A stretch of DNA of 64,000 nt from NCBI RefSeq assembly GCF_014284235.1, contig NZ_JACOGD010000006.1:281207-345206 (forward strand), written 5' to 3'. Source of the stretch: Cognatundibacterium curvum. GTDB taxonomy: Bacteria; Pseudomonadota; Gammaproteobacteria; Burkholderiales; Burkholderiaceae_D. Within the stretch, counting starts at the first letter, position 1. Each line of letters opens with the position of its first letter. A program made the translations under genes and the position numbers. Below, one piece after another: positions 850 to 19,015 of this stretch. The notes beneath the pieces were generated by a model. It searched no databases, was not told where the DNA came from, and saw only the letters and a list, made by a program, of their open reading frames with translations.

Positions 850-880
850 CTGTATGGACATACAGCTATGCTGCTATAAT
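850..880 (+). promoter_or_regulatory. Methyltransferase promoter with overlapping operator palindrome
   Basis: A perfect 16-bp palindrome, CTGTATG-GA-CATACAG, lies at 850-865. A consensus -10 element, TATAAT, is at 875-880 with a weak -35 (GTATGG) at 852-857, spaced 17. The palindrome covers the -35, so a bound dimer would block transcription of the methyltransferase gene, which starts 28 bp downstream of the -10. The likely ligand is the divergently encoded XRE protein. Confidence 0.6.
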
Positions 881-908
881 CGCGAGCTAATAAGCAACGG
901 AGAAAGAT

Positions 909-2114: not shown

Positions 2115-2138
2115 ACAAGATTAGGTTGGTTAAGCAAC

Positions 2139-2552
2139 GTGGATACTCTGACTCCAGAGCAAAGACGTAGGGCGATGGCTGCAGTTAAGAGTCGTGATAC
2201 CAAACCTGAACTCGTAGTGCGCCGACTTCTTCATGGCGCTGGATACAGATTTCGACTTCAGCGGAAAGACTTGCCAGGTAAGCCAGATATTGTTTTAACA
2301 CGTTTTAATGCCGTTATTTTTGTTCATGGCTGCTTTTGGCATCAACATTCCGGTTGTAAACGTGCTTTGCGGCCGACAACTCGGCGCGAGTATTGGGAGT
2401 CCAAGCTCGATCGCAACATCGAGAGAGATGCTAAGACAAAATTAGAACTGGAGCGACTTGGGTGGCGAGTACATATTGTTTGGGAGTGCGAAACTCAAAA
2501 TATTGATTTTCTTCGCCGACAACTTGTTCAATTCCTGCAGGTAGAAAAGTAA
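2139..2552 (+). CDS. vsr: Very short patch repair endonuclease Vsr
   Basis: A 137-residue Vsr endonuclease that nicks 5' of T:G mismatches arising by deamination of 5-methylcytosine. The start is a GTG giving MDTLTPEQRRRAMAAVKSRD, the near-invariant opening of the family; the product is full length. The metal-binding and catalytic region is visible as GKPDIVLTRFNAVIFVHGCFWH, split by the conserved Asp, followed by the zinc-site His/Cys residues and the C-terminal LGWRVHIVWECE. It lies 24 bp after the methyltransferase stop and probably shares its transcript, so it likely repairs mismatches at that enzyme's own sites. Confidence 0.95.
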   Translation: MDTLTPEQRRRAMAAVKSRDTKPELVVRRLLHGAGYRFRLQRKDLPGKPDIVLTRFNAVIFVHGCFWHQHSGCKRALRPTTRREYWESKLDRNIERDAKTKLELERLGWRVHIVWECETQNIDFLRRQLVQFLQVEK

Positions 2553-2728
2553 ATTTAGTTGGTCACGATAATATCTATGTCGGTTAGACCCGACTATGAA
2601 GAGAATGCGGGTGCTGCATTTCGGAGATACCGAACTTGTTGTAAGCAGTTCGGCATGTAAAAATTACTTCAACATAAATCCTAATCTTGTCTAACATTGC
2701 TTTTAGCCAGACTTTTAGAAAAAACTGA

Positions 2729-3661
2729 ATGAAATCTAATCTTGAGACATTTGCACGCGATAATAAATTTACTGGTAAAGGACCGCTGAGCGTTGCTCTT
2801 GTCATTACAGAACGAGTAAAAAATAAAACATTTCCACTGGATTCAAATGATTTTCTTGCGGAAAGTGGAACGCAAGTGGCTGGTCTTGGCTTAGCTTCAG
2901 TGCAGGCCATTTTAACGCGCAACGGCATTAGTCGAGTACTGGCTAAAGAGGGGGGGCGCACCAGCCGAGGTAGTGTGCCAAATATGATCAGCTATATTCA
3001 ATTTTTAAATCAAATGCATGCTGAAAATGTATTGGATCTTGAAATCGCTGAAAAATTTTGGATTGGTCGGGTTGAGGCATTCTTCGCGGGAAAACCGTTC
3101 ACTCTGCGACTTGATCCGCAATTAGGATTGAGAGCAGTTGTGCGCAATTTAATGGATCAGGCGTCCCTGCGCCAAAAAGCCGATACCGGTACGATGTTCC
3201 TGGGAACTGTTATGCAGCATTTGGTTGGCGCTAAGCTCGATATTGTTCTAAAAGGAGAAAGCAGCATCGAGCACCACAATGCGAATCAAAATGATCAAAA
3301 GGAAGGTAGAACCGGAGATTTTGATATTGGCGACGTTTCAATTCACGTCTCAACAGCTCCCAGTGAAGCTCTTATTCAGAAATGCGTTGAAAATCTCTCT
3401 ATCGGCCAAAAGCCTATGATTATCACCGGACGGAAGGGGGCGGTCGTTGCAGAAGGATTAGCTGAAAATGCGCACATTTTAGACCGTATTGATATTATCG
3501 AATTCGAACAATTCATTGCTACCAACATACATGAGCTGGGAAGATTCTCGCTTGAACAGCGAAGGGTCAAGGTCGAGGAAATAATTGAGCGTTACAATCA
3601 AATCATTAATGAGGTTGAGACGGACCCGAGCCTGATGATTGAGCTTGCACACGGGCGATAA
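2729..3661 (+). CDS. DUF4928-family protein, probable restriction endonuclease
   Basis: A 310-residue protein resembling the DUF4928 family, whose members are repeatedly encoded beside C5-methyltransferases. The N-terminal part (MKSNLETFARDNKFTGKGPL onward) and the C-terminal EERRV-like helix are typical of it. The central segment GDFDIGDVSIHVSTAPSE, followed about 30 residues later by KPMIITGRKG, could be a PD-(D/E)XK-type active-site arrangement; I infer this from pattern and have not aligned it. Its position third in a methyltransferase-vsr-X order supports the restriction role. It is 176 bp from vsr, so it may have its own promoter. Codon use is AT-rich, as in the rest of this part of the island. 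Confidence 0.65.
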   Translation: MKSNLETFARDNKFTGKGPLSVALVITERVKNKTFPLDSNDFLAESGTQVAGLGLASVQAILTRNGISRVLAKEGGRTSRGSVPNMISYIQFLNQMHAENVLDLEIAEKFWIGRVEAFFAGKPFTLRLDPQLGLRAVVRNLMDQASLRQKADTGTMFLGTVMQHLVGAKLDIVLKGESSIEHHNANQNDQKEGRTGDFDIGDVSIHVSTAPSEALIQKCVENLSIGQKPMIITGRKGAVVAEGLAENAHILDRIDIIEFEQFIATNIHELGRFSLEQRRVKVEEIIERYNQIINEVETDPSLMIELAHGR

Positions 3662-3733
3662 ACTTTTCATCAGAGCAAGCACTAAAAATTAGAAATAGTG
3701 TTTGTACTGCTGAAACCTCAATACCATAAATAT

Positions 3734-3763
3734 TTGTTAAAAATGAATGCTAAGATGTAAAAT
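3734..3763 (+). promoter_or_regulatory. Candidate promoter of the TIR-caspase operon
   Basis: TTGTTA at 3734-3739 and TAAAAT at 3758-3763 with an 18-bp spacer, in the AT-rich gap between the DUF4928 gene and the SLATT/TIR/caspase genes. The match to the sigma-70 consensus is moderate, and AT-rich DNA produces chance matches. Confidence 0.35.
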
Positions 3764-3793
3764 ACATTCAACTTAGCAACATTATTTCTTGAT

Positions 3794-3901
3794 ATGGCGA
3801 CCTCTCCAAACATTCCTCAGCCAACACCTCATCCAGGTACGCAACAGAGAGGACATGTTCCTCGTCCAACACAACATCCGCCTCGACCGCCTTCTAAATG
3901 A
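3794..3901 (+). CDS. Proline-rich 35-residue upstream ORF, in frame with the SLATT gene
   Basis: ATG at 3794 opens 35 codons of an unusual Pro/His/Gln/Arg-rich peptide (MATSPNIPQPTPHPG and similar, ending PRPPSK) that stops at TGA 3899-3901. The same frame then runs IWN straight into the ATG of the membrane protein at 3911. It is either a small leader-type ORF or, equally likely, the true N-terminal tail of the SLATT-like protein cut off by one nonsense mutation or base error. I see no strong ribosome-binding site before 3794. Biased proline content in only this frame argues against pure chance. Confidence 0.4.
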   Translation: MATSPNIPQPTPHPGTQQRGHVPRPTQHPPRPPSK

Positions 3902-3910
3902 ATTTGGAAT

Positions 3911-4414
3911 ATGGATACTCTTGCAGATCATTTATGGCAAAGACGTTGTGGTCTTAAGCTACGGGCGCTGACAAACCGTTTTTATTACCAAGAACGACAG
4001 AGGATATTTGAATCTCGTGAAGGCATGGTCAAAATCATTTCCATCCTCGGCGGCACGGTGGCGTTTACCAAACTGATGGATCCATTGAGTATTCAGATAT
4101 GTGCGTCCTTGATTACCGTTTCCAGTGTGATGTCCCTTGTTTTTGGTTTTGGAAATAAGGCAAGGGATAGTGCAAAACGCAGTGCTGAATGGGCACGCTT
4201 GGATCATGATATCGAACTCGGCGGCGAAACCAATTTTGTTGAGACAGATATTAATCAATGGGCTGCGCGTTGCAGTGAAATTGAATCGAGCGAGCCCGCA
4301 CAACATCCTGGATTGTTTGAACGCAGCTATTTGAGAGCTTGCGAGGCACTGGGAAGTACTCCGCATGAATCTAGGTTTTGGCGCAGGATTCGGCCGGTCA
4401 TTTTGCTTCATTGA
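3911..4414 (+). CDS. SLATT-like two-helix membrane protein of the TIR-caspase operon
   Basis: A 167-residue protein with a basic, amphipathic N-terminus (residues 7-37, RRCGLKLRALTNRFYYQERQ), two transmembrane helices (about 38-56 and 60-82) and a cytoplasmic C-terminal half of charged helices (NKARDSAKRSAEWARLDHDIEL). This layout is that of SLATT domains, two-helix putative pore-forming effectors or sensors found in nucleotide-signalling defence operons. It lies 41 bp upstream of the TIR gene on the same strand. The start is uncertain because the frame continues upstream across a single TGA. Family assignment is by architecture rather than by a diagnostic motif. Confidence 0.65.
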   Translation: MDTLADHLWQRRCGLKLRALTNRFYYQERQRIFESREGMVKIISILGGTVAFTKLMDPLSIQICASLITVSSVMSLVFGFGNKARDSAKRSAEWARLDHDIELGGETNFVETDINQWAARCSEIESSEPAQHPGLFERSYLRACEALGSTPHESRFWRRIRPVILLH

Positions 4415-4455
4415 AATTGGTGATATTTTTGATTTGACGTGTGATTGGATTTCAA

Positions 4456-4872
4456 ATGAGTAATACATACAATCTTTTTATTAGCCATTCTTGGGCATAT
4501 GGTGACGCATACGATCGACTAATTGAGTTATTGGATACACGTCCATATTTTTTTTACAAAAACTATTCTGTCCCCAAGAATGATCCACTTCATACACGTG
4601 GTACTGATAAAGACTTGCATGCGGCGATAAAGCGTCAAATTGCTCCATGTCATTGCGTTTTGATTTTTGCAGGCGTTTACTCAACTTATAGTAAATGGAT
4701 TAATAAAGAAATCGCCATATGTGCAACTGAATTCGGGACGAAAAAACCAATCATTGCGATTCAACCTTGGGGTGCAGAGCGGACTTCGAAGATCGTGAAA
4801 GAAAATGCTGATGCGATTGTCGGTTGGAACACCGAATCGATTGTCAAAGCTATCCGCGAAGTGTCAGCATGA
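4456..4872 (+). CDS. ThsB-type TIR domain protein (DUF1863), Thoeris signal generator
   Basis: A 138-residue stand-alone TIR-like domain. It opens MSNTYNLFISHSWAYGDAYD, the beta-A/first-loop signature of the DUF1863/ThsB family. The conserved WINKEI at 81-86 places Glu85 where TIR NADases have their catalytic glutamate, and beta-D/E-like strands follow (KKPIIAIQPWG). ThsB proteins sense phage and convert NAD+ into cyclic ADP-ribose isomers. Thirty-three bp downstream is a caspase-like protease, the partner known from type IV Thoeris, in which the TIR product N7-cADPR switches on the caspase. The frame reads back to a GTG at 4441, but the ATG at 4456 gives the canonical family start. Confidence 0.9.
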   Translation: MSNTYNLFISHSWAYGDAYDRLIELLDTRPYFFYKNYSVPKNDPLHTRGTDKDLHAAIKRQIAPCHCVLIFAGVYSTYSKWINKEIAICATEFGTKKPIIAIQPWGAERTSKIVKENADAIVGWNTESIVKAIREVSA

Positions 4873-4905
4873 AAAATCAATCGACCAAGTAGGGAATCAG
4901 AGAAT

Positions 4906-5859
4906 ATGAGGAAGGCGTTAGTTGTAGGAATTAATTACTACGATAATATTTCTGGTTTGTTTGGGTGCGTAAATGACGCATATGCGGTGAAGAATGGATT
5001 GGAGCGACATAGTGACGGGTCTATTAACTTCTCAGTCCGCCTCAAAGTGGCAACAGCTCAAAATGACAAAATTACTCGCACTGAACTTAAAAGCGCGGTT
5101 CGAGAGTTGTTTGCAGACGATAGTGAAATTGCGCTTTTTTACTTTGCGGGTCATGGATATATAGAGGACTTAGGCGGATATTTGTGCGCAAGCGACTGTG
5201 AGAGCGGTGATGATGGATTGTCATTGGCGGATGTCGTTAATATTGCAAATCAATCTAAGGCCCACAATAAAATTATTGTATTGGACAGTTGTCATTCAGG
5301 GGTAGCCGGCAATACTTCACCCTCAAGGCAATTGGCAGAAATGACAGAAGGACTAACCATTCTTACCGCCTCTACAGATCAGCAATATGCGAGTGAGGAG
5401 AATGGAGCCGGAGTTTTTACGACCTTATTTGTCGACGCACTTAACGGGGCAGCAGGCAACTTGGTTGGAGACGTGACGCCAGGTAGCGTATACGCGCATA
5501 TTGATCAATCTCTGGGGCCCTGGGATCAGCGTCCCGTCTTTAAAACAAATGTGAAAAGCTTTGTTTCGTTGAGAACTGTTCAGGCACCCATTAGCTTGCA
5601 AGAGCTGCAGAGAATAACAGATTTTTTTCCTGAGCCTGGTATTGAGTTTAAATTGGACCCTTCATACGAGCCAGAGAGTGAACACCCGAACACTGATAAA
5701 ACTTCAATATTCTCAATATTGCAAAAATACAATCGAACCAATCTCTTGGTACCGGTTGATGCACCGCATATGTATCATGCGGCAATGAACAATAAAGCTT
5801 GTAAATTAACTGTTCTTGGCGAACATTATCGCCGGCTGGTCGCGAGAAAATTAATATAG
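4906..5859 (+). CDS. Caspase-like protease (C14), effector of a type IV-like Thoeris system
   Basis: A 317-residue bacterial caspase homologue. The p20-like core is intact: [12 protein letters not shown], the catalytic His in FYFAGHG (His83) and the catalytic Cys in VLDSCHSG (Cys129). A second subunit-like segment ([27 protein letters not shown]) completes the fold by about residue 222. Residues 225-317 form an extra C-terminal domain, including [15 protein letters not shown] and [14 protein letters not shown], which I cannot name; in TIR-caspase systems a domain of this kind would bind the TIR-made signal. It is the last gene of the operon. Activated caspases of type IV Thoeris degrade host proteins and stop phage growth; applying that here is inference from architecture and order. 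Confidence 0.9.
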
Positions 5860-5930
5860 TTTTCGTCGCGATGCCGGCGTGAAATGTTTGCGTTATATAG
5901 ATTGCAGCCTGCTTAATGTTAAACAGGCTT

Positions 5931-8246
5931 CTAGGGCAGATATGCTCCGGCACGAGTTAATTTGATTTCGTTCCCAGATTTTTGATAGACGCGAAACAAT
6001 GCAAGATTGCTTGTTGTTGGAAAAAAATCCTCCTCGCGGAATGTAACGTAAATTCCTATTTTCGCGGCATAACTTTCGATTGATTTTAATTCTACGATGA
6101 CCCAGTCGCCGACGCGTGCGCTTCGGAGTGCGGTGAATGGCATCGCAACTGAAAACATCGAGAGAGCTTGCTGTTCGAAAGTTAAAATTGCAGCTTGCAA
6201 TCTATTTTTCAATTCAGTCGCACGTCTGGCAATGGTCGCAATTTTTCCTTCAAGATCCAGAATCTGATTATGCAGGTTGCTAATATAAAGATCACTTTGT
6301 TTAAGTTGAGGTCGAATATCTTTTAAGGCATTCCATGCTTTGAATGCCTGCACAATCGCGATTACTCCCATAATTGCTGCGAGAACCCGCACCGGGGTAG
6401 ACGGAACCCAAGGTAATACACAAATCCACGAAATTCCAGTAATACCTATCGCTAATTTTTGAAAAATGCTTTGTTTTTTTTCTTTATCCATCAATAAAGA
6501 ATGGGCTTCATTTTGTTTTGCAAGTGAGTTTCTATAGTTTTTTTCTTCCACGCGATGTTGGTAAGCAGATGCTGAGGCAGAACATGGCGTCCAAGTCAGT
6601 ATTTGATCCATAGCTGTAAAAGCTCCACCATGTATTTTTGAGACATTTAAAATTTCCAAGGTGGTGGGGGCTTTCCAAATATGAGTCATTGACGAATTAG
6701 ACAAACGATATTTAAGCACCGGTTGGCCAGCAGAAATAACGTCGCCAACACGCGGATATGTAATAATTTCGAGCGTATTTCTTCCGTTTAACGTGAGTTT
6801 TCCAGCATCTAATACGTATGTGGAATTTGGGGTCGGTGATATTGAATTTAACTTAGATGCGTTAAGAAATTCGCATGCATGAACATGTATCTCTCGAAAT
6901 TGGCGTTGGATTGATCGTCTGCATGAAAATATTCTTCTTGAAACAATGGGGTTGGTGATCATGCTTCGATCGTTAGTCGAATCGATGCCAAAAATTTCTG
7001 CTATTGTATTTTCTGAAGCACAAATGTTTTTTGCAGGGGTGTCGATTTTGGATTGAATATCCTTTATGAAGGTACTGAGACCATCCTTGTGAGCTTCAAA
7101 CGCGGGATCGCACAAGATATTGTCTAGTACAAGTGGATGGCAATAAAACGCCTGTCTCAATGACTCCAAGGACCCCGGTAGTTTGTCTGCATATGCGCGC
7201 TGACGTGCAAGCTCCAAATGAGTTTGTGCGTACCACCCGGCTTGCTCAACAGCGTTCTCTGCATAAATTTGCGCTTGTTCTCGATCGACACCTGCTACGG
7301 CGCGAGCAGCAAGAATTAACGATGCCGCTGCCCTTAATGGTTGGTCAGTCTTTCCGTAAATTCGAGCCGCTCTGTCAGCAAATAAAGTTGCTTCTTGAGC
7401 GGCCTTAACTCGTCCTTTACTCAAAAGGACCCGGGCCAGCCATTCGTTGGCAACAGGATCAAGTGGCCGAAGTAAGGACGCTTCTCTTAAATGTTTCTCG
7501 GCGATGCCTCTCTCACCTATTTGCAGAGCAAGCTGCGCTTCACGAAGTTGTTCATCTGCGGCAAAAGCTCGCTGGTTCCTGGCTATTTCCAGAGCTGATT
7601 CTGCTGATGGTGATTTTAATAACAATGCTAATTCAGAGATCGGTTCTGCGTGCATTGTATTCAGTTTCATCAATTCGGCATCAGGGATTCCAGCAACTTC
7701 ATCTCCGATTTCCCAGTCCGCACTTGAATCCTGACCATTCTCTTGAAAACGGATTTCCCAAACGGTTCTAATTATTGCGCCAACGACGCTATCTATTAGT
7801 GATTGCCATTCTTCAACACAAGTTGGACGGTCATACATTGCTGCACGCTGGTTGCGCATCACTTCTTGTTTGAATTCTTCAAGACTGGAATTCGATTGCA
7901 AAATTTGATCGTTGGTCTGTGGAGAAGTAATAAAAAAAGGTAAAACACGTGTTTCGCAATCGTCCTCTATCGCCGTACGATATTCAATGTGTGTGCAGCT
8001 TAATTCTGTGCCGTGAATTTTTGGGCCATATGTATCGCCAACCAAAAGCACCATAAGTTCTGAACGCTTTACCCAACTCATACAAAGGGCAGACGGCGAT
8101 TCCGTGTCTGCACCATTGTCATTTAGTTCTACCGCGTGTATCGGCACATGTGGGAAGTCATTCAATTTTTGCGCGATCATTTTGCGGAAATCGCTGAACT
8201 CTGAAAAACGAGACGAGATAAATATTGCAATTTTCTGAACTGACAA
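5931..8246 (-). CDS. DUF4062-TPR-coiled-coil membrane protein, putative defence sensor
   Basis: A 771-residue multi-domain protein. Residues 1-100 are a DUF4062 domain (MSVQKIAIFISSRFSEF, ELMVLLVGDTYGP, CTHIEYRTA), a TIR/SLOG-like fold common in conflict systems. Residues about 200-390 are alpha-solenoid, TPR-like repeats rich in Ala and Leu. A beta-rich segment of about 100 residues follows. A coiled coil is then interrupted by two adjacent membrane helices (GITGISWICVLPW and VRVLAAIMGVIAIV), and the protein ends in a small beta domain. The start is a TTG preceded by a strong Shine-Dalgarno sequence, AGGAG, 7-8 nt away, so the unusual start codon is well supported. It is convergent with the caspase gene, 71 bp apart. 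I do not know a function for this architecture. Confidence 0.75.
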   Translation of the reverse strand: MSVQKIAIFISSRFSEFSDFRKMIAQKLNDFPHVPIHAVELNDNGADTESPSALCMSWVKRSELMVLLVGDTYGPKIHGTELSCTHIEYRTAIEDDCETRVLPFFITSPQTNDQILQSNSSLEEFKQEVMRNQRAAMYDRPTCVEEWQSLIDSVVGAIIRTVWEIRFQENGQDSSADWEIGDEVAGIPDAELMKLNTMHAEPISELALLLKSPSAESALEIARNQRAFAADEQLREAQLALQIGERGIAEKHLREASLLRPLDPVANEWLARVLLSKGRVKAAQEATLFADRAARIYGKTDQPLRAAASLILAARAVAGVDREQAQIYAENAVEQAGWYAQTHLELARQRAYADKLPGSLESLRQAFYCHPLVLDNILCDPAFEAHKDGLSTFIKDIQSKIDTPAKNICASENTIAEIFGIDSTNDRSMITNPIVSRRIFSCRRSIQRQFREIHVHACEFLNASKLNSISPTPNSTYVLDAGKLTLNGRNTLEIITYPRVGDVISAGQPVLKYRLSNSSMTHIWKAPTTLEILNVSKIHGGAFTAMDQILTWTPCSASASAYQHRVEEKNYRNSLAKQNEAHSLLMDKEKKQSIFQKLAIGITGISWICVLPWVPSTPVRVLAAIMGVIAIVQAFKAWNALKDIRPQLKQSDLYISNLHNQILDLEGKIATIARRATELKNRLQAAILTFEQQALSMFSVAMPFTALRSARVGDWVIVELKSIESYAAKIGIYVTFREEDFFPTTSNLALFRVYQKSGNEIKLTRAGAYLP

Positions 8247-8416
8247 GTAATTTCTCCTGATGCAAAAAATTACTATTTTGACATATTGGAAATGCTTGTA
8301 GCTTTGAAGGTTAATTGTTTGTAAACAACCATTCCAAAATTTTTAGTTATTTTGAGTCGCAAAGAGCCATGAAAATGTAATTGATGATTTTCCGATTATG
8401 CCTGGTTCAAACAAGG

Positions 8417-9106
8417 TTACAGATCAACAAGTTCGATTTTCGCTGGCGACTTGTAGAGCACTGAACGCCCCACTCGCCCTTTGAATTTCAGTTTTTCTTT
8501 GAAATAGTACGTAAACGCATCGACCAGCTCCTTGGGAGCCCGAGGGTCAAGAAGGATGTTATCGATGAGCTTATGCGGATTGACTGGTACTGCGATTCCC
8601 TTTGGGACTTGAAGTCGCTCTACATCTGGACAGTAGATCGTGGCGCGCCATTCGGACTCATGAGTAAAAGCCTCTCGCTTGTAGTACAAGATTTTCGCTG
8701 CAGTTGATAAGTCAAATTCATTCTCTAGTGCCGAGGCGATCTCGCGAACCTTGAGGTTCAGATTGTGCTGGCTTAGATATTCCACCTTTCCAGTTGTGCA
8801 ATGATAGCCGCCAGCCTTGCTCGCAGTCCTAACAGCATGAGAAAGCTTCTTGGTGGAAGTAGACAGCCGAACGCCCATATGCGTCGGCGAATAGATTCTC
8901 CACATTGCATCAGACACGCCCAATTGCCCCCAGCATTGCGCGAACAACGCGTGACTTACCTGATGCGAGATCCGCGTTTCGTATGGATCATCCCAGGCGC
9001 TTGGATGTGCGAAGTGGAGGCTTTCACTCTCAAAAATCTGAACCGCACGGCTGAAATCCAAAATACGATAAAGCCGACCAGCACTCATCCCAGATGCATT
9101 CGTCAT
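8417..9106 (-). CDS. DUF2971 domain protein
   Basis: A 229-residue protein with the DUF2971 pattern: LYRILDF near the start, the LHFAHPSAWDDPYE motif, a CWGQLGVSDAMWRIYS segment followed by GVRLSTS, and HESEWRAT about two thirds along. DUF2971 proteins are frequent in defence islands and on phages; no reaction is firmly established that I can cite, though the arrangement of a short N-terminal motif and a late E-x-E/W motif has been likened to ADP-ribosyltransferases. It is a single gene, divergent from the operon at 9263 and higher in GC than the genes to its left, so it belongs compositionally to the second half of the island. Confidence 0.7.
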   Translation of the reverse strand: MTNASGMSAGRLYRILDFSRAVQIFESESLHFAHPSAWDDPYETRISHQVSHALFAQCWGQLGVSDAMWRIYSPTHMGVRLSTSTKKLSHAVRTASKAGGYHCTTGKVEYLSQHNLNLKVREIASALENEFDLSTAAKILYYKREAFTHESEWRATIYCPDVERLQVPKGIAVPVNPHKLIDNILLDPRAPKELVDAFTYYFKEKLKFKGRVGRSVLYKSPAKIELVDL

Positions 9107-9191
9107 TCCTATACCCCAGCCCGTTGTTGATCAATTAGTCGAATTTCCATTTTGCAACTATAGTATATATTGATTTGATAACGAATCTCGC

Positions 9192-9228
9192 TTGACCTGG
9201 ATATATATACAGTGTACGATTTTCGTAC
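9192..9228 (+). promoter_or_regulatory. Promoter and operator of the 9263-12396 operon
   Basis: TTGACC at 9192-9197 and TACGAT at 9215-9220 are spaced 17 bp. An inverted repeat, GTACGA-TTT-TCGTAC (9214-9228), lies over the -10 and the start point. A repressor bound there would shut the operon; the XRE protein encoded second in the operon is the obvious candidate. Confidence 0.5.
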
Positions 9229-9262
9229 TAGGACGGTTTGAAAACTATACAGGGAGGATGGC

Positions 9263-9532
9263 GTGACGGAAATGGAATCCAAGATCCGGGAAATCCTAGA
9301 CACATTTTGGGAAGATAGGGCGATCCCAACCGAGGATGGCGGGAGCATCGTTGATGCCCTGGTCGCACCAGTTGAATCCCTGACGGCCGTTGAGGTGTTA
9401 GTCGATCTTGACAAAATCACCGGGGAGAAAATTCCCAACACGGTCATCCAGGCTGGTGGATACATGACCAAGGATGAATTTCTAGACAAGCTTACCGCTT
9501 CAGTTTTGAAGCACTTAACGAGCAAGTCATGA
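9263..9532 (+). CDS. Small acidic protein of unknown function, first gene of operon
   Basis: An 89-residue acidic protein (MTEMESKIREILDTFW, PVESLTAVEVLVDLDKITG). It begins at a GTG with GGGAGG 5 nt before it, a strong start; the overlapping ATG at 9258 leads to an immediate stop. It resembles, in length and in the motif DSLTAVEVL-like, an acyl-carrier-protein-type helical bundle (one conserved Ser in VESLTAVEVL), but similarity is slight and I do not claim that function. Its stop overlaps the start of the XRE gene by four bases (ATGA), so the two are translationally coupled. Confidence 0.7.
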   Translation: MTEMESKIREILDTFWEDRAIPTEDGGSIVDALVAPVESLTAVEVLVDLDKITGEKIPNTVIQAGGYMTKDEFLDKLTASVLKHLTSKS

Positions 9533-9897
9533 GCCGCGAACAACTTGACCAAGATACCCAGCAGCGGGTCGAGCTGGGTGCACGTATCCGACAAGCCCGC
9601 GAATATGTGGGGATGTCGCAAGATGATGTCGCAACCACACTAGGTATATCTAGGCCGGCGGTCACCAATATCGAATCCGGCGCACGGAAAGTCGAAGCCT
9701 TAGAACTAAGCAAGCTTGCGAGCTTGTTCGGGGTTACCACCGAAGAGTTACTCTCCGGGCATCAAAATATCGATCGTGAGCGTGTCGCCTTTTTGGCCCG
9801 TGCGACCCAAGGACTTTCTGACTCCGATCTTGATCAGCTGTACCGCTTTACTGAATATCTACGTAATTCGTCGAAACCGGGCCGCCGAGGTAAGTGA
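9529..9897 (+). CDS. XRE-family transcriptional regulator
   Basis: A 122-residue Cro/C1-type regulator: the helix-turn-helix lies at about residues 17-70 (RIRQAREYVGMSQDDVATTL, ISRPAVTNIESGARKVEALE, LSKLASLFGVTTEELL). The C-terminal helix probably dimerises. It is immediately followed by an ImmA/IrrE metallopeptidase; such pairs act as repressor and derepressor, with the peptidase cleaving the XRE protein on a stress signal. Overlaps are four bases upstream and one base downstream. The inverted repeat at 9214-9228 is its likely operator. Confidence 0.85.
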   Translation: MSREQLDQDTQQRVELGARIRQAREYVGMSQDDVATTLGISRPAVTNIESGARKVEALELSKLASLFGVTTEELLSGHQNIDRERVAFLARATQGLSDSDLDQLYRFTEYLRNSSKPGRRGK

Positions 9898-10934
9898 TGT
9901 CTACACGTGATGACCTGCTCAATGCCGCACGCAGAGCAAATGAAGTGCTGGATGAATTTGAAGTCCGCAAACGCATCGAGCTGGGATACACCCGCATCGA
10001 TCCGGTTCGCATTGCTGAAAACGCAGATGTTCCGGTCATGTTTCAGCCACTGAACAAACTACTGGGGGCCTACTTGAACGAGGGGCGCCCCGGCATCATG
10101 GTCAACATCAACCGTGGCCCGGGCCTAGTCCACATGACTTGCGCCCATGAATTGGGGCATTTTTTCCTGGGCCACCAACCTCAGACAGATCTGTTAGTCG
10201 AGTATGGTGACCTGGCCAACATCGTTGAGCGACAAGCCGACCAGTTCGCATTTTCGCTCCTGCTACCAAGGTGGTTAGTCAAAGAGATCATGAGCCGTAA
10301 GGAATGGACTTCACTTGCAGATCCAGTCGTGTTGTACCAACTATCCTTGCGCCTTGGTACCAGCTACACATCGACCATCTGGACGCTGCAGCGCATGCAC
10401 GTCATTAGCCCTGCGAGAGCGAATGAATTGGCTCATGTCACGCCAAAGACGATCAAAGAGCACCTTACTGGCGGCGAAGTACCAGATGATAAAGGCGATG
10501 TTTGGTTGGTTGATCAACATGATCGCAATTCCATCCTTGAACCACACAAGTCGGACTACTTTGTTTTCGACCTGCCCAGCAAAGCCGGTGCCGGCTATGT
10601 CTGGTCTCTGGACGATGTCGTTGCAAAAGGATACGCGGTGGAGCCGTTACAAAACGATGTACGGGAAACGCCCGTGGAGCAGCATTTTGGCCAAAATCCG
10701 GAGTTTGGTCCTGTCAACACCCGGCGGTTCGTGGCCATTCCGGCAGCTGGCGATGACGTAAAGCCCGGCACTTCGGAAGCGTTTTCGATGTATCAACGTC
10801 GCCCCTGGGAGAATCGTCCTCTGGCGGGAACTGACAATCAGTGTACGTTCAACACCGAATTTGAGTTTATTACGAATGGTCTCGACCCAAAGGAACGCAT
10901 GCGTCGCGTTGAGGAAGTGAAGGCGACGGCATGA
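9897..10934 (+). CDS. ImmA/IrrE-family metallo-endopeptidase
   Basis: A 345-residue zinc metallopeptidase of the M78 family. The HELGH motif (His84, Glu85, His88) stands in HMTCAHELGHFFLGH, and a downstream acidic helix, IVERQADQFAFSLLLP, gives the third zinc ligand and the family's characteristic ERxAxxFA pattern. The last 120 residues extend beyond the peptidase domain and are of unknown role. Start: the GTG at 9894 is possible, but the ATG at 9897 gives the TGATG coupling typical of operons. Family members cleave XRE repressors (ImmA, PezT-like and radiation-response IrrE); here the substrate is probably the product of the preceding gene. Confidence 0.9.
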   Translation: MSTRDDLLNAARRANEVLDEFEVRKRIELGYTRIDPVRIAENADVPVMFQPLNKLLGAYLNEGRPGIMVNINRGPGLVHMTCAHELGHFFLGHQPQTDLLVEYGDLANIVERQADQFAFSLLLPRWLVKEIMSRKEWTSLADPVVLYQLSLRLGTSYTSTIWTLQRMHVISPARANELAHVTPKTIKEHLTGGEVPDDKGDVWLVDQHDRNSILEPHKSDYFVFDLPSKAGAGYVWSLDDVVAKGYAVEPLQNDVRETPVEQHFGQNPEFGPVNTRRFVAIPAAGDDVKPGTSEAFSMYQRRPWENRPLAGTDNQCTFNTEFEFITNGLDPKERMRRVEEVKATA

Positions 10935-11566
10935 TCGAATCTTTGATTGACTTCTCTGCGGTGCTGGGACCAGCCCGCGATCAAGATATGCGCGGAATGT
11001 GCTTGGCTTTCGCTTCCTCTGACCTCAATCAGCGGATCAACGGGCTGTCTGATTATCTCAGTGTTGAATACCTAGCTCACCACGCCGCTAAAGCTATGCC
11101 TGGTTGGACACCGGTCCACGGCCTCAATTTTGAGGTCGTAGTGAAAGCATTGGCGACGCCTGGCCAGCCGCTTGAAAGCGGCTATCCATATGTTCCGTCG
11201 AAAGACGACCAGCCATTGGCTGCTCCGCCATCCAATGTGGGAAAGCTTTACATGTGTACTGCAAACCAGAACGGCAAGGTCGAATCAACCGTACTTGCCG
11301 CGTTACAGGCGAAGAAGCCGGTTTGCCTTGGCATGGCAATTAATGACGAATGGTTCACCCCTCAGCACGGAGTCATCAAATATCTGACGACCTACACCAA
11401 TGACAGGCATGCGGTCCTTGCTGTGGGTCTGGGCATCGACCATTCAGCAGGTGAGCGCTTTATCCTGGTACGCAATAGCTGGGGCCCCAACTGGGGCAAC
11501 AGGGGACACGCTTGGCTCCCTGAGCGTTATTTAAAAACCCACCTTCTTCAGTCCTTGATCGGTTAA
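10931..11566 (+). CDS. Papain-like (C1 family) cysteine protease
   Basis: A 211-residue papain-fold protease with the whole catalytic set visible: oxyanion Gln18 six residues before Cys24 (in DMRGMCLAFA), His160 in RHAVLAVGLG and Asn182 in VRNSWGPNWG. The last is followed by the typical RGHAWLP strand. There is no signal peptide or propeptide, so it should act in the cytoplasm as made, unlike most secreted C1 enzymes. The start overlaps the metallopeptidase stop by four bases. A cytoplasmic papain homologue next to a metallopeptidase and a repressor suggests a proteolytic effector or processing step. Confidence 0.85.
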   Translation: MIESLIDFSAVLGPARDQDMRGMCLAFASSDLNQRINGLSDYLSVEYLAHHAAKAMPGWTPVHGLNFEVVVKALATPGQPLESGYPYVPSKDDQPLAAPPSNVGKLYMCTANQNGKVESTVLAALQAKKPVCLGMAINDEWFTPQHGVIKYLTTYTNDRHAVLAVGLGIDHSAGERFILVRNSWGPNWGNRGHAWLPERYLKTHLLQSLIG

Positions 11567-11568
11567 CT

Positions 11569-12396
11569 ATGGCTAAAATCTTTGACGGCACTACTGGGAA
11601 TCGTATTGTCCCGATTTGGCATGCGGCGGCAACGCATTTGCTGCATGCCCATGAACGAACTGACATGAATCTCGTTCTCGAGATTATTGATCCAATGACG
11701 GTGACCGAAGAAGACAAAAAACTGATGCGTCAGATTGACGTGGCGCTGAAGTCTCCCGGCTGCGACCTCACCCTGGACACTGTCGCGTCCACCATTTTCC
11801 CCTACCGCATGTATGAACGACATGGCCGACCGGCCATGTACAAGAAATACTTCAGCGCGCTGGATCGTGGAAAGAAGAGCGGTACTTGGGGCACTTACGC
11901 CGAGCGAATTATGTCTCATCCTGCCAAAGATGGGATCAACACCATCAATCCCTTGAATATGCTGGTTGAAAAGCTTCGTACGAACGGCAAAGCCCGCCAA
12001 AGCTTCAAGTCTGCGTATGAATTGAACTTGAGTGATCCCGAGGCGGATCTGGCGCCAATCCTGGATTTGTTCGGCGATGGCGGAGATATCCCTACCTACA
12101 AAGCCGTGCTCGATGCCAAGGCGACTCGCAATCGCCCATGCTTAAGTCATGTGAGCTTTAAGCTCGTCGACACCGATAAAGTGAACCTGACCGCCATTTA
12201 TCGTTCGCACCACTATTGTGCTCGCGCGCTGGGAAATCTGGTGGGCTTGGCCCGGTTACTTAACTTTGTCGCGAAGGAAGCGGAGCTCGAAGTCGGACAG
12301 TTGACCTGCATCTCTACGTTCGCCACCCTCGATACCAGCACCTGGGGCGGCGTAACTAAAACGAGGAAGCTGCTGGGTTCCTATAAACCTGATTAA
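11569..12396 (+). CDS. Thymidylate-synthase-fold protein, divergent
   Basis: A 275-residue protein whose C-terminal half follows thymidylate synthase/dCMP hydroxymethylase: RPCLSHVSFKLVD carries a Cys (191) where ThyA has its nucleophile in PCH, then AIYRSHHYCARALGNLVGLARLL matches the YQRSxDxxLGxPFN...YALL helix, and KEAELEVGQLT matches the LEVGDF strand. WGTYAER at about 107-113 recalls the WGxYG segment. The His after the nucleophile and the PFN Asn are not conserved, so it may act on another nucleotide or not methylate dUMP. It starts 2 bp after the protease stop, and its stop overlaps the convergent glycosylase stop by four bases. The assignment rests on these motifs alone. Confidence 0.6.
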   Translation: MAKIFDGTTGNRIVPIWHAAATHLLHAHERTDMNLVLEIIDPMTVTEEDKKLMRQIDVALKSPGCDLTLDTVASTIFPYRMYERHGRPAMYKKYFSALDRGKKSGTWGTYAERIMSHPAKDGINTINPLNMLVEKLRTNGKARQSFKSAYELNLSDPEADLAPILDLFGDGGDIPTYKAVLDAKATRNRPCLSHVSFKLVDTDKVNLTAIYRSHHYCARALGNLVGLARLLNFVAKEAELEVGQLTCISTFATLDTSTWGGVTKTRKLLGSYKPD

Positions 12397-13061
12397 AACA
12401 AATCAGCCTGTGTTGATGCTACATTCTTCAGAACCGGCCCGTAAAGGCGCTCAATGCCTGCTCTGAAGTCACTCACGCCACCATAGCTCGGGTGGCGAAT
12501 ACATTCGACTTCCACGCCAAAAGAACTGGCGTACTTGGACGCATCCTGCCCGATGCAGATAATACGCTTGATGTTCAGCCAGCTCACCAGTTCACGGTTC
12601 AACGCATCAACTAACTTCAGCTCGTGAGACGTGAAGCGACGGTTTGTCATTTCGTCGTCCTGCACATGGGGGTGGAATGGGAAGACATTCCAAAGCAGAG
12701 GAGGTTGTGGCAACGCGCAAATGGCGGCCCAGATCTCGGTAGCAGTGCGCTCTGCGACCAACGGACCGCGGGTCGCACGCTTAGGAGCGCTGCCAGGATA
12801 GCGCGCAGCAAATTGGGTCAAATGCGACTCGTCGGTCAGAGCCAAGCCCGTGCGTCGCCCTCCACGATAGCCCAAATCGCGCCCCATCCAGATGGTGTCG
12901 ACGGCCAACTCCTCAACCGCCTGCAGATAGGACCTCAAATTCTTACGTCGGACTGTCGCAGCATTGTCCAGGTCGCAGGCATCGCATTGATCTGCATACG
13001 GGTTAAAGACATTGGGTAGACTGATTTCTGCCAGCGCAGCAACAAATTTCTTAGCGTTCAC
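12393..13061 (-). CDS. Uracil-DNA-glycosylase-superfamily protein
   Basis: A 222-residue protein with the UDG-fold motifs: motif I region IWMGRDLGYRGGRRTG (from residue 57), a LLWNVFPFHPH strand (about 122-132) and the motif III loop RHPSYGG (His190). A CxxC pair at 26-29 could bind a metal. Motif I is GRDLGY where relatives usually have GEAPGY, so the catalytic position is changed, though the Asp sits as in GQDPY of family 1. The start is a GTG overlapping the stop of the MazG gene (GTGA). UDG-fold enzymes remove uracil or modified pyrimidines from DNA; beside a TS-fold protein and MazG domains it suggests a shared pyrimidine-based chemistry. Confidence 0.75.
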   Translation of the reverse strand: MNAKKFVAALAEISLPNVFNPYADQCDACDLDNAATVRRKNLRSYLQAVEELAVDTIWMGRDLGYRGGRRTGLALTDESHLTQFAARYPGSAPKRATRGPLVAERTATEIWAAICALPQPPLLWNVFPFHPHVQDDEMTNRRFTSHELKLVDALNRELVSWLNIKRIICIGQDASKYASSFGVEVECIRHPSYGGVSDFRAGIERLYGPVLKNVASTQADLF

Positions 13062-14269
13062 GATTGGGCTTTCTGAGGAACATAGGTGATCGTGTGATCA
13101 TGCATATTGACCTTAACAATACCGCAACGATCTTTACGCAGTAGGCGGAAGACCTGGAAGCCATCTAGAATTGCACGCTCCCACTGCCACAAGGGGCAGT
13201 TGTCAACCTCATACCCGGCAACCATGCTTTGGACTTGCTTGAGGAGGGCGTATTCTAACTTACCTTCCTTAACGTCCTTGAAGAATTCGCCCTTGTCGCG
13301 CGCGTGGTTAAAAATCCAGGTCGCAATTCCCTCTTCGATAATCATCGCGCGAGCTCCGTCTTCATTCTCGTCGACCGTCGAGCGACTCTTGCGCTTGAGC
13401 TTCAGCAAGCCACGGATAACTGGCGACCAACCTAAATGAGCCACATATGCCAGGTGAAACACGTCATGAAAACGATAGTCGTCTTGCTCAAGACGATTAT
13501 CAGTCAGTGGATCCCCAATGTTCACGCCACGCCAGCGCTGAACAACGAAGAGCCGCCCATTCACAGTACGCTCAATAAACTCAATTTCCAACTCGCGCGG
13601 CAATTGCTCGTGCTCGAGGTCGTCTTCATCAAAGTACGGCCCATAGGGAGCGTCATCGCGCCGCCAGCGCGATTCGATTTTCTGCAGGTTGGCAGTCGAC
13701 ACTGATGTCATTTTCAATCCATTGCTGGCGGCAACCAATGCCAGCAATTCTAGAAGCTTGGCATACAGTTCGACATTGGCGTCGCTGCTAAGTTCCTCTG
13801 ACGCTGCACTGAAGTTCTCGAACAGACCACTGGTACTTTCAGCCAACTCGTAAAGCAGTTTCCCGAAATCATCGGTCATATGATCAATCTGGAAGGCGAT
13901 GAGACCGTCAATCTGACTAAATCGAATGCCCTTGCCAAATCGCTCCACTTTCGAGATACCCAAGCGCTTCTGAAGATGTAGCAATGCCATTTCGCCGACC
14001 TTATCAAGGCCCACGCCAATCCGTCGGGTAAAGGCGGCCAAATACCAAAGGGCGTCGCCAATTTCCTCCAGCGCGATTTCCTGCTTCGAGACTGACAGCG
14101 GCGTCTCACGATGGAATTTCTTCACCGCGGAGAGCAGGCCACCGGCTTCGCCGAAGAAACCGTAGCGCATCTGACTAAGTGCTTCAACGTTCTCACCAAA
14201 CTGGTCTGAATAGGCCGATTGAGTTTGGTATTCCACCAGCAGCATATCTACGTCAGAAGTGCAATCCAT
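13058..14269 (-). CDS. MazG-like pyrophosphohydrolase fused to a conserved helical domain
   Basis: A 403-residue protein. Residues 1-105 are an all-alpha NTP pyrophosphatase: Glu41 in GEAGGLLSAVKK and Glu68/Glu69/Asp72 in EEIGDALWYL are the magnesium ligands. Residues 120-205 look like a second, degenerate copy of the same helical fold. Residues 225-403 form a separate domain with the signatures DDYRFHDVFHLAY, GWSPVIRGLLK and EDGARAMIIEEG, rich in acidic and His residues as in a metal site. The same C-terminal domain occurs in the gene at 14975. MazG enzymes hydrolyse (d)NTPs to monophosphates. It lies 9 bp after the DUF4031 gene and overlaps the glycosylase gene by four bases. Confidence 0.75.
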   Translation of the reverse strand: MDCTSDVDMLLVEYQTQSAYSDQFGENVEALSQMRYGFFGEAGGLLSAVKKFHRETPLSVSKQEIALEEIGDALWYLAAFTRRIGVGLDKVGEMALLHLQKRLGISKVERFGKGIRFSQIDGLIAFQIDHMTDDFGKLLYELAESTSGLFENFSAASEELSSDANVELYAKLLELLALVAASNGLKMTSVSTANLQKIESRWRRDDAPYGPYFDEDDLEHEQLPRELEIEFIERTVNGRLFVVQRWRGVNIGDPLTDNRLEQDDYRFHDVFHLAYVAHLGWSPVIRGLLKLKRKSRSTVDENEDGARAMIIEEGIATWIFNHARDKGEFFKDVKEGKLEYALLKQVQSMVAGYEVDNCPLWQWERAILDGFQVFRLLRKDRCGIVKVNMHDHTITYVPQKAQS

Positions 14270-14278
14270 AGACTTTCC

Positions 14279-14587
14279 TTAGACAGTAAGGAGCAGTGAA
14301 AGTTGCTGTGCCGGCTCAGCCTGTTGTGCGGTAATTTGTCGCTTCAATTCGCGCGCGCACGCAATCAGCACTTCACGGTCGGCCAAAATAGCGCCCATCT
14401 GAAGCGCCTTGGCACGAACGGACAATGTCACGTCGTAATGTGGGTAAATCGATTGGCTTTGAAACCATGCTCGCTTCAGCCCAACCTTGGCCGCAAACCT
14501 ATGCAGTTCATCTGGAGTATCGGCAACCATATGGCACCAGATCCTGCCGCGCCATTCGATGCACTCGTCGTCGATATACACGGCCAT
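14279..14587 (-). CDS. DUF4031 protein
   Basis: A 102-residue protein that opens MAVYIDDECIEWRGRIWCHM, the start of the DUF4031 family, and carries the other family landmarks: ELHRFAAKVGLKRAWFQ, HYDVTLSVRAKALQMGA. The biochemical role is unknown; the conserved His/Asp residues (HM..D, HYD) could hold a metal or a nucleotide. It is the first gene of the minus-strand block DUF4031-MazG-glycosylase. A palindrome 12 bp upstream of its start probably controls it together with the divergent XRE gene. Confidence 0.85.
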   Translation of the reverse strand: MAVYIDDECIEWRGRIWCHMVADTPDELHRFAAKVGLKRAWFQSQSIYPHYDVTLSVRAKALQMGAILADREVLIACARELKRQITAQQAEPAQQLSLLLTV

Positions 14588-14598
14588 TCAACACCCAT

Positions 14599-14614
14599 AA
14601 TATTTGCAAATATT
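14599..14614. promoter_or_regulatory. Palindromic operator between DUF4031 and XRE genes
   Basis: A perfect 16-bp palindrome, AATATTTGCAAATATT, in the 47-bp divergent gap. A -10-like GATATAAT follows at 14617-14624 for the plus-strand gene. TTTGCAAA is the core; the same core recurs inside the XRE gene at about 14807-14835. Confidence 0.6.
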
Positions 14615-14634
14615 TCGATATAATATGCAAACCT

Positions 14635-14955
14635 ATGAGGAAACACAAGCCAGTTGAGCCACACATTGCAACCATTTTTGGAGGCGAACTTAAGCGCGCC
14701 AGGGAGCGTCGTAAGCTAACGCTTGTCGACATCTCATCAAAGATTGATGTCCACTACGGACAGCTCTCAAGGTTCGAATCTGGCGACTTCAAAGTACTCT
14801 CTCCAAATTTGCAAAAATTTGCAAAATATTTGCATGTTCGCCTCACCGAACCAGTCCTTGATTTGTCAGTTCGATTCGAACGATTGGCTTCCAGATCACC
14901 ACGTCACCTGGCCGCATGTAAGCGCCTAATCGAAGCACTTGAAAAATTGGAATAA
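14635..14955 (+). CDS. XRE-family regulator with clustered binding-site-like repeats
   Basis: A 106-residue Cro/C1-type DNA-binding protein: helices FGGELKRARERRKLTLVDIS and IDVHYGQLSRFESGDFKVL (about 15-60), then a C-terminal helical segment. It is divergent from the DUF4031-MazG-glycosylase block and convergent with the second MazG gene, 19 bp away. Within its own coding sequence, codons for NLQKFAKYLH contain three close copies of TTTGCA(A/T), the core of the operator upstream of the gene; they may be secondary operators. The open frame extends upstream to 14425, but only the ATG at 14635 gives the normal family N-terminus and lies after the promoter. Confidence 0.8.
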   Translation: MRKHKPVEPHIATIFGGELKRARERRKLTLVDISSKIDVHYGQLSRFESGDFKVLSPNLQKFAKYLHVRLTEPVLDLSVRFERLASRSPRHLAACKRLIEALEKLE

Positions 14956-14974
14956 GGAGCGCAGCGCCGCTGTA

Positions 14975-15901
14975 TCAACTTTGGCGCGATGCTCCCTGGC
15001 GTCGCCGGCGTGGTGCCGGCCGATACGTAAGCGATTGGTGGTCCAAGTCGACGGTAATGATTCCACCGCAGTTATTCTTCAACTGCTCAAAGGCCACGTA
15101 ACCCTGATGAATCGCGTCCTGCCATTGTTTCGCAGTACATGCACGCACCTCCAGTCCATCCACGATGCGGCGAATTGTCTTCAGAAGACCAATGTCAATC
15201 GAGGATTTCTCCAAGTACCATCCACGTTGCTGTGCCTGGTTGAAGACCAGGATGGACACAGCTTCCTCAACAATAACTGCCCTGGCTCCGTCTTCAACTT
15301 CATCCACTTTGTCGTCCGATTTCCGCTTTCTTTTCAGAAGGGAGCGCGTTACCGGTGACCAGCCCAATACGGCCGCATACGCCAAATGAAAAACATCATG
15401 AAAACGATAGCCGTCATCTGTATGGGCGTTGTCCGTAAGCGCATCGCCAATGGCAACATCGTTGATTGAAATGCGTACCTGGATACCGTTCTTTAAAGGT
15501 TTTTCGAGGAAACTAACTTCGAACTTTCGCGGAATTCGCTCATCCAAAGGATAGCTGAGGTCAAAGACAGCTACTTTGCCCTTGGAATAAAGCGACTCCG
15601 CTTTCTCTGCATTCGTTTGAACGATTTCCCTGAGTGGAATCTTGTAGAGCGAAGCCAAGCTCGTTAAGTACCACAGGATGTCGCCGAACTCTTCGCGCAG
15701 TTCCTGTTGAAACAGGGGGTTGTCCCGTTGCAGAACCAGCTTCTTAATCATGCTATGGAGATCGCCAATTTCGCCGACTAAGCCCAATAGCGACACTATA
15801 CGAGTCTTGCGCTCATCCGTGCGCTCAACCATGGCCTGATACTCGTCAAATGTCTTGATTTGAACGAGTGTATTTTGTTTTCTTTGAGAACGTGTGGCCA
15901 T
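14975..15901 (-). CDS. Second MazG-like protein sharing the C-terminal domain of the first
   Basis: A 308-residue paralogue of the protein encoded at 13058. MazG ligands: Glu44 in GEIGDLHSMIKK, and Glu70/Glu71/Asp74 in EEFGDILWYL. The degenerate middle repeat is absent. The C-terminal domain repeats the same signatures, DDGYRFHDVFHLAY, GWSPVTRSLLKRKRKS and VEDGARAVIVEEA, then IITVDLDHQSLTYRP matching the partner's VNMHDHTITYVP ending. A short Arg-rich tail closes the protein. It is a single gene at the end of the island, next to gyrB. Two different MazG domains with one conserved partner domain suggest heteromeric or substrate-split function. Confidence 0.75.
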   Translation of the reverse strand: MATRSQRKQNTLVQIKTFDEYQAMVERTDERKTRIVSLLGLVGEIGDLHSMIKKLVLQRDNPLFQQELREEFGDILWYLTSLASLYKIPLREIVQTNAEKAESLYSKGKVAVFDLSYPLDERIPRKFEVSFLEKPLKNGIQVRISINDVAIGDALTDNAHTDDGYRFHDVFHLAYAAVLGWSPVTRSLLKRKRKSDDKVDEVEDGARAVIVEEAVSILVFNQAQQRGWYLEKSSIDIGLLKTIRRIVDGLEVRACTAKQWQDAIHQGYVAFEQLKNNCGGIITVDLDHQSLTYRPAPRRRRQGASRQS

Positions 15902-16214
15902 ATGCGTCCTTACACAATAAAACGATAAGAACTACTCATATGGCGATATTGCCAATAAAATTAACTAAATGCAATTAATAGTTATGACTGCCCGTCAGTT
16001 CCTTATTCTTGAGGAATTGCATATAACTGGCATAACCCGAATAACTCCGCGGCCTTGACGCCGCGGTCGGGATAGACGAAATCCATGTGAGGAAGCCGAA
16101 TTACGTACGCCGTCCTTTTAGGGGCACGAGGCAGATTGCAATAACTTCGACTTTTTGATTGCAAAAAATGAGCTGTGATTGCACTAACTTTGACTGCCTC
16201 CGTCATCCGACAAA
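15902..16214. other. Island-gyrB junction, no recognisable gene
   Basis: A 313-bp gap. It is AT-rich on the left (the probable promoter of the minus-strand MazG gene). A GC hairpin is formed by CCGCGG at 16047-16052 and 16061-16066. An open frame across 16003-16218 has no convincing start or family and reads like remnant coding sequence. No att-site repeat was found by eye. Confidence 0.5.

Positions 16215-19015
<2,801 letters not shown>

Follow-up and report, generated by a model that had tools for sequence, protein, structure and literature searches.

A widely spread seven-gene unit with a predicted carrier protein, two proteases and pyrimidine nucleotide enzymes, and its likely role in defence

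Positions 9192 to 15901 of a stretch of 64,000 nucleotides from Cognatundibacterium curvum (contig NZ_JACOGD010000006.1, hereafter the window) hold ten open reading frames (ORFs), and the first seven of these, g1 to g7 (9263-14269), form a conserved gene unit. Five genes read rightward encode a predicted acyl carrier protein (ACP, g1), an XRE-type repressor (g2), an ImmA/IrrE (M78) metallopeptidase (g3), a papain-like (C1) cysteine protease (g4) and an enzyme of the thymidylate synthase (TS) fold (g5); convergent on them lie the genes of a putative uracil-DNA-glycosylase (UDG) superfamily protein (g6) and a MazG-like protein with a MazG_C domain (g7), followed by g8, and then by g9 and g10. 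The unit is real, widely spread and, as far as literature searches reach, undescribed, and a function in defence is likely. The reading that we favour, at a probability of about 0.42, is that of a conflict system carried by mobile DNA, inducible and acting on pyrimidine deoxynucleotides. An initial description of this locus from its sequence (the original prediction) had proposed a single, tightly co-selected module of ten genes; all ten genes, of the kinds it named, were recovered by ORF and domain scans, and so were the overlaps (measured at 4 bp for g1/g2, g2/g3, g3/g4, g5/g6 and g6/g7) and the short gaps (2 bp between g4 and g5, 9 bp between g7 and g8), but the core contracts to g1-g7, with g8 and g9 seen in one branch only and g10 local to the window.

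Recurrence across genomes carries the case for the unit. The census comprises 98 loci, namely the window, 80 genome loci, 16 plasmid loci and one IMG/VR locus, after removal of short or duplicate pieces (L001-L005, L017, L018), pieces lacking TS (L014-L016) and unrelated ones (L107-L108). It was seeded by TS, and its member loci are not independent of one another; within it TS occurs in 98, ImmA in 96, ACP in 91, C1 in 89, MazG in 88, UDG in 76 and HMUDK_hel (PF18723, a 5-hydroxymethyldeoxyuridine-kinase-type family) in 16. Some of the absences reflect the end of a contig or a gene that has diverged, and in L102 and L103 a 103-codon gene occupies the ACP place. The genome loci derive from a scan of GTDB-species genomes with the TS alignment, which gave 85 relatives, 80 of them kept as loci (ACP in 75, XRE in 77, ImmA in 78, C1 in 78, UDG in 68, MazG in 74, and DUF4031 and a g9-type XRE gene in 14 each). 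Among 72,556 plasmid records, tblastn matched g5 in 22, each at less than 60% identity, and g7 in 34; of the 22 records matched by g5, 13 are predicted to be conjugative. The same search with g5 found none in 50,697 phage records, and a pattern scan of IMG/VR gave one g5-type locus, L109.

The order small gene, XRE, ImmA/IrrE, C1, TS and convergent UDG and MazG is found on a Burkholderia glumae plasmid and, identically, on plasmids of two Bradyrhizobium, of Sulfitobacter and of Sinorhizobium; a Rhizobium plasmid copy lacks the MazG gene, a Sphingomonas plasmid is annotated merely with short hypothetical genes in the UDG place, and a Haloarcula plasmid carries the first five genes with those of a phosphopantetheinyl transferase (PPTase), tmk and HMUDK_hel. 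By record title or taxonomy the loci, found on plasmids and genome islands, fall into nine phylum-level groups (Pseudomonadota, Acidobacteria, Planctomycetes, Chloroflexi, Myxococcales, Bacteriovoracales, Actinomycetota, Cyanobacteriota and Halobacteria), the one archaeal member being that of the haloarchaeal plasmid, and yet the TS gene is rare and patchy, occurring in three of 300 genomes of the order with the source genome counted. The co-selection that had been proposed from gene spacing is thus borne out by a g1-g7 set that recurs, and whose genes co-occur, in most of the 98 loci. The mosaic island setting and the local g10 might have spoken for a chance cluster of unrelated mobile genes; gene order shared across distant taxa leaves that explanation practically no probability, and it was rejected.

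Described at first as a small acidic protein, g1 belongs to a family whose profile (A2, nine rows) matches acyl carrier proteins in the Protein Data Bank (PDB) with a best E of 3.5e-7, and its status as an unknown acidic protein was rejected on that match. The Pfam PP-binding family is above its cut-off only in L009 and below it in L007, L010, L011 and L013, with no Pfam match in L006 or in the window g1, which is also without an NCBIfam match. The serine motif [DE]S is kept in 90 of 91 loci, and in the window the predicted phosphopantetheine serine is Ser39, in the motif ESL; profile and motif together identify g1 as an acyl carrier protein whose phosphopantetheine serine is conserved. In 12 of the 98 loci an AcpS-type gene is found no more than 8 kb away, and because the source genome has five PF01648 matches elsewhere, a private PPTase is not needed there. 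Carrier protein, PPTase and a MilA-like TS-fold enzyme are combined in nucleoside antibiotic clusters too, and the unit could serve to make such an antibiotic, or a signal, that diffuses out; but among the annotated neighbour clusters, a part of all clusters, none was recognisable as a gene for adenylation, a ketosynthase or a transporter, and UDG and HMUDK_hel indicate DNA, so that we consider this explanation quite improbable.

The enzymes g5 and g7 point to pyrimidine deoxynucleotides. For g5, TIGR03283 gives 54.9 bits where its cut-off is 174.55 and PF00303 gives 18.9 where it is 24.3, and its fold groups with pyrimidine 5-hydroxylases, hydroxymethylases and ThyA. Catalytic Cys191, Arg212 and Asn223 are kept, while the position of the folate-contacting Asp (D169 in E. 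coli) is His215 and varies across the family, placing g5 outside ThyA proper. The N-terminal all-alpha domain of g7 is dUTPase/MazG-like; whole-model searches of g7, whose results were filled by this helical domain, gave no fold name for MazG_C. A dCTP-deaminase-like (DCD) gene occurs in 12 of the 98 loci, an extra PF00303 TS in L046, L103 and L109, with further profile matches elsewhere, some of them weak, and a tmk gene near the unit of L008. The pyrimidine theme originally suggested is thereby supported by the TS fold, the dUTPase/MazG-like domain, UDG and DCD, and the reading that fits best is an inducible, protease-gated system of pyrimidine nucleotide modification or excision, probably directed against an invader, as judged from the families concerned.

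How the pathway may end is suggested by the alternation of g6 with HMUDK_hel. PF03167 is above its cut-off in L007 and just below it in L013, with no match in L006 or in the window g6, the latter also lacking an NCBIfam match, and a PDB profile search with the g6 family was weak (E 0.4). The motifs RDLG and WNxFP are present in 76 of 76 proteins and HPS in 75, and g6 is, on these three motifs and its homology to the PF03167-matching relative, a predicted member of the UDG superfamily. Across the 98 loci UDG and HMUDK_hel are never together: UDG alone occurs in 76, HMUDK_hel alone in 16 and neither in six, three of which (L026, L044 and L069) are on contigs that stop at or just after TS. Fisher's exact test gives 8e-14, uncorrected for kinship, and at least five changes between the two are seen on a quick TS tree whose deep forks are weak. 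The window locus has no HMUDK_hel, and a search of the source genome gave no match, and neither did its controls. The mutual exclusion suggests that both proteins act at one step, the target probably being a pyrimidine in DNA that has been modified or deaminated.

The same enzymes allow a different purpose, in which a 5-substituted pyrimidine in the plasmid's or host's own DNA would escape restriction or mark self; TS would make a 5-hydroxymethyl- or similar deoxynucleoside monophosphate, the ACP would deliver a group, and HMUDK_hel or g6 would act on the DNA base. The HMUDK_hel loci, the extra PF00303 TS, tmk, Nmad3 and radical SAM genes near single loci and the number of plasmids predicted to be conjugative all agree with such hypermodification, but UDG stands in place of HMUDK_hel in most of the loci, and control by an operator and proteases is more in keeping with an emergency response than with marking that goes on all the time. 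We therefore rate self-marking as unlikely, though it retains appreciable weight.

Control of the unit appears to depend on its two proteases. With its first half the family profile of g3 finds the structures of IrrE and CapP, and HExGH is kept in 95 of 96 ImmA proteins; profile positions 212-315 match amoebiasin-2/chagasin and other inhibitors of cysteine proteases, with a best E of 5.3e-12. Pfam I42 scores pass the cut-off in L007 and L011 and fall short of it in L006 and the window g3. A profile of this domain was built from 20 rows including the window, which is for that reason not counted below: the profile reaches at least 48.4 bits in all 69 other tested loci that have C1. In the seven loci that have ImmA but no C1 it never exceeds 1.0 bit, one of them being without a match. 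Catalytic Gln, Cys, His and Asn motifs are visible in the alignment of g4, and by simple patterns Gln-Cys is found in 86, His in 85 and Asn in 88 of 89 C1 proteins. The chagasin part of g3 may accordingly restrain g4, and we found no precedent for an M78-chagasin/papain switch or for the carrier protein beside it.

An inhibitor domain present exactly alongside its protease, overlapping genes and the location of part of the loci on plasmids are also what plasmid addiction or dormancy would produce, with C1 as toxin, ImmA-I42 as antidote, XRE as autoregulator and the nucleotide enzymes as a second toxic arm. The seven ImmA loci, however, retain the rest of the unit without C1 and I42, and a multi-enzyme unit of seven genes and five kilobases is untypical of such modules; addiction is an improbable explanation.

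Upstream of the operon lies a candidate operator. The palindrome GTACGATTTTCGTAC shares bases with the -10 element of a promoter-like site, 49 bp upstream of g1, and occurs in exact form nowhere else in the 4.25-Mb genome; the -35-like hexamer of the site starts at position 9192, where the original prediction had set the start of its module. Between 220 bp before and 120 bp after the mechanical ORF start of the ACP gene, 38 of 90 loci have a palindrome with at most three mismatches, where random stretches drawn from those loci would lead one to expect 4.8, and 52 of the 90 have no palindrome better than chance. Some variants, for example GTAAGATTTTCTTAC and GTTCGATATTCGAAC, are altered symmetrically in both half-sites, as expected for a dimeric repressor. 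Promoter-like sites are no commoner in the region than in shuffled sequence (six found, 5.9 expected). With an XRE gene directly upstream of an M78 gene with HExxH, and an operator conserved at the operon promoter, the palindrome is probably bound by g2. It had been supposed that proteases and repressors are the trigger, and this is now likely given the operator and the M78-I42-C1 pairing; the kinds of protein had been rightly recognised, and the inhibitor domain within g3 and the operator had been overlooked.

Taken together these features suggest the following course for an inducible conflict system. At rest g2 would sit on the operator upstream of g1 and keep the g1-g5 operon low, and the chagasin domain of g3 would hold g4 inactive until g3 is triggered. 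IrrE and CapP are activated by DNA damage or single-stranded DNA, and by analogy the signal is most likely one of these, arising during invasion by a phage or plasmid. It would activate the metallopeptidase g3, leading to cleavage of g2 and opening of the operon, and the released g4 would provide a second proteolytic step. The N-terminal domain of g7 may then convert deoxyuridine triphosphate (dUTP) or another deoxynucleoside triphosphate to its monophosphate, with a dCTP-deaminase-like gene added in some loci; g5 would attach or build a C5 substituent on deoxyuridine or deoxycytidine monophosphate, and the phosphopantetheine arm of g1 would bear the acyl or aminoacyl group required. The product would enter DNA or the nucleotide pool, where g6 here, or HMUDK_hel elsewhere, may excise or further modify the base by base flipping, and replication of the invader would be hit hardest. 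That the unit is a new kind of immune or DNA-conflict system, with ACP-dependent pyrimidine hypermodification, an interchangeable last step and a two-tier metallopeptidase-chagasin/papain switch, is a tentative proposition that we consider less likely than not; enzyme cores of this kind had been suspected before on the strength of nucleotide-modification genes.

Several points weigh against the conflict system as formulated. Each chemical step and the defence role itself are deduced from family membership, g5 is without some residues used by ThyA, and no ACP-loading enzyme was recognised among the annotated neighbour clusters, a part of the whole. The C1/I42 pairing, although a clean correlation, amounts to one change on the TS tree and is a single event. 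Any common ground between a UDG that excises and an HMUDK_hel that modifies is a guess, and among the matches listed the genes around the unit do not stand out clearly as a defence island.

Table 1. Features of the locus in the window, with related operons in other loci in the last row.
Feature	Position	Strand	Basis
Promoter-like site of the g1-g5 operon, TTGACC, 17 nt, TACGAT	9192..9220	+	consensus scan
Palindrome GTACGA-TTT-TCGTAC, candidate operator	9214..9228	.	single exact genome copy; similar palindromes in relatives
g1, predicted acyl carrier protein, 89 aa	9263..9532	+	family profile, serine motif
g2, XRE-type repressor, CapH-like	9529..9897	+	HTH_3 51 bits; PADLOC capH 48 bits
g3, ImmA/IrrE (M78) metallopeptidase with C-terminal chagasin-type (I42) domain	9894..10934	+	Peptidase_M78; family profile
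g4, papain-like (C1) cysteine protease	10931..11566	+	Peptidase_C1 50 bits; alignment; motif census
g5, thymidylate-synthase-fold enzyme	11569..12396	+	TIGR03283, below cut-off
g6, predicted uracil-DNA-glycosylase superfamily protein	12393..13061	-	PF03167 match in relative L007; motifs
g7, dUTPase/MazG-like all-alpha domain (about 9-199) and MazG_C (211-399)	13058..14269	-	MazG_C 268 bits
g8, DUF4031 protein	14279..14587	-	PF13223 89.6 bits
g9, second XRE-type regulator	14635..14955	+	HTH_3 33 bits; start chosen
g10, second MazG-MazG_C protein	14975..15901	-	MazG 26 bits and MazG_C 251 bits
TIR-associated MazG-UDG operons	L118 5804-8685; L119 4084-8527; L015 5771-8663		

The genes beyond g7 are additions of narrower distribution. 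The pair g8 and g9 occurs in 15 distinct loci with the window included (17 entries, two of them duplicates), all within one beta/gamma-proteobacterial group. The start of g9 was set at the first in-frame ATG after g8, the mechanical ORF beginning at 14425, and A/T-rich repeats of the TTTGCAAA type, at 14598-14631 before g9 and 14806-14834 inside it, are a possible operator of this second XRE protein. A second intact MazG_C gene like g10 (at least 60 bits) was seen in no other locus of the census, L033 and L037 having one MazG_C gene split in two, and g10 was rejected as a member of the conserved unit. Within their MazG_C parts, g7 and g10 share a 95-bp direct repeat (13389-13483 and 15321-15415, 71% alike) which, with 38% protein identity, suggests that g10 is a diverged paralogue rather than a recent copy.

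The island adjoins gyrB (16215-18713, named by eye from its translation), and its guanine-cytosine fraction is 0.41-0.48 in its left part (1-9000) and 0.48-0.55 in the stretch of the ten genes, with 0.51-0.62 at 16-39 kb. The left part (161-9106) has XRE, C5-methyltransferase, Vsr-like, small membrane and TIR-like genes, named by eye; left of g1 lie also a caspase-domain gene (4906-5859), a DUF4062 gene (5931-8246) and, beside the unit, a DUF2971/PDC-S31 gene (8417-9106, DUF2971 by eye). Between g10 and gyrB, positions 16130-16202 match one genome of the same genus at 89% over 73 bp, with a second, 25-bp piece of the match about 48 kb off on the same contig of that genome; this is a possible attachment site.

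Of 255 sampled flanking genes 149 were scanned, and no enrichment is claimed. Among the matches listed (25 of 104 Pfam families) phage integrase (six) and ACPS (four) are commonest, and transposase, conjugation, TS, DCD and tmk families also appear; GajA-type and SIR2 matches number two each among those listed (25 of 258 PADLOC and 25 of 104 Pfam families). In L051, a Dehalococcoidia contig, the row XRE-ImmA-C1-TS is followed by SIR2, a second TS-like protein (with a profile match and no Pfam match), radical SAM and Nmad3 (5347-9367). A metallophosphoesterase protein of about 730 amino acids is encoded near the unit in seven of the 98 loci (L007, at 8798-10981, L045, L047, L063, L072, L080 and L106), and its C-terminus in L080 has a weak TS profile match (E 0.0028). 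A gene of 1615 amino acids before TS in L040 was rejected as a partner, being an NAD-glutamate dehydrogenase.

The MazG-UDG pair is found outside the unit as well. In L118, L119 and L015 the order is ThsB_TIR, Nmad2, MazG, UDG, and in L014 (1619-4007) Nmad2, MazG, UDG; in L119 a SIR2-STALD (ThsA-like) gene is convergent to the operon. Relatives of g6 occur in three of 43 genomes of the genus, those of L118 and L119 and the source genome. Through its neighbours Nmad2 and ThsB_TIR the pair is connected with Thoeris-like defence where TS plays no part, and the Nmad2-MazG-UDG operons look like a nucleotide-modifying extension of Thoeris.

If the proposed role is correct, acyl carrier proteins and chagasin-gated papain-like proteases enter the biology of prokaryotic conflict, and bacteria own an inducible pyrimidine-modifying pathway whose chemistry is best known from phages; the unit also offers a route to the function of MazG_C and presents UDG and HMUDK_hel as parts that can replace each other. 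Among the literature matches listed none describes the g1-g7 set in full, and parts may have been described earlier. In its main text the DefensePredictor study describes defence units of E. coli, validated by experiment, that feature thymidylate synthase and 5-hydroxymethyluracil kinase domains; further systems, predicted but unvalidated, have aGPT-Pplase, MazG, MazG-C and HTH domains, and UDG is named in a figure legend (PMC13092281). Compared from that main text, these systems and the unit have single domains in common, and neither 'acyl carrier' nor 'papain' occurs in it (PMC13092281); the terms 'acyl carrier', 'MazG' and 'papain' are likewise absent from PMC10853773. When nine proteins of the window were scanned against PADLOC-DB 2.0 (E 0.1), only g2 and g3 matched, and g1, g4-g8 and g10 had no match. 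The initial statement that no system of this composition had been described thus holds for the set as a whole, with no effector matched in PADLOC, and fails for single parts that are already in print.

Like CapH-CapP and IrrE-DdrO, the unit has an XRE gene followed by an M78 gene, capH and capP being the best PADLOC matches, but its M78 protein has a chagasin domain and would govern an ACP-C1-TS operon, and no cyclase of the cyclic-oligonucleotide-based anti-phage signalling system (CBASS) is annotated in the 16 plasmid stretches examined. Thoeris (ThsA SIR2-STALD and ThsB TIR) shares the MazG-UDG neighbourhood in L118, L119 and L015, whereas no SIR2 or TIR family is found among g1-g10 of the window. 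Phage operons for thymidine hypermodification reportedly combine a TS homologue, a 5-hydroxymethyldeoxyuridine DNA kinase and aGPT-Pplase, and are approached by the unit in its TS-fold enzyme, in the HMUDK_hel of 16 of the 98 loci and in the Nmad3, radical SAM and extra TS genes of single loci. The unit differs from these operons in its distribution, among bacteria and one archaeon with g5 nearly absent from the phage and IMG/VR collections, and in its ACP, its XRE-ImmA-I42 switch, its papain-like protease and the UDG that takes the last place in 76 of the 98 loci.

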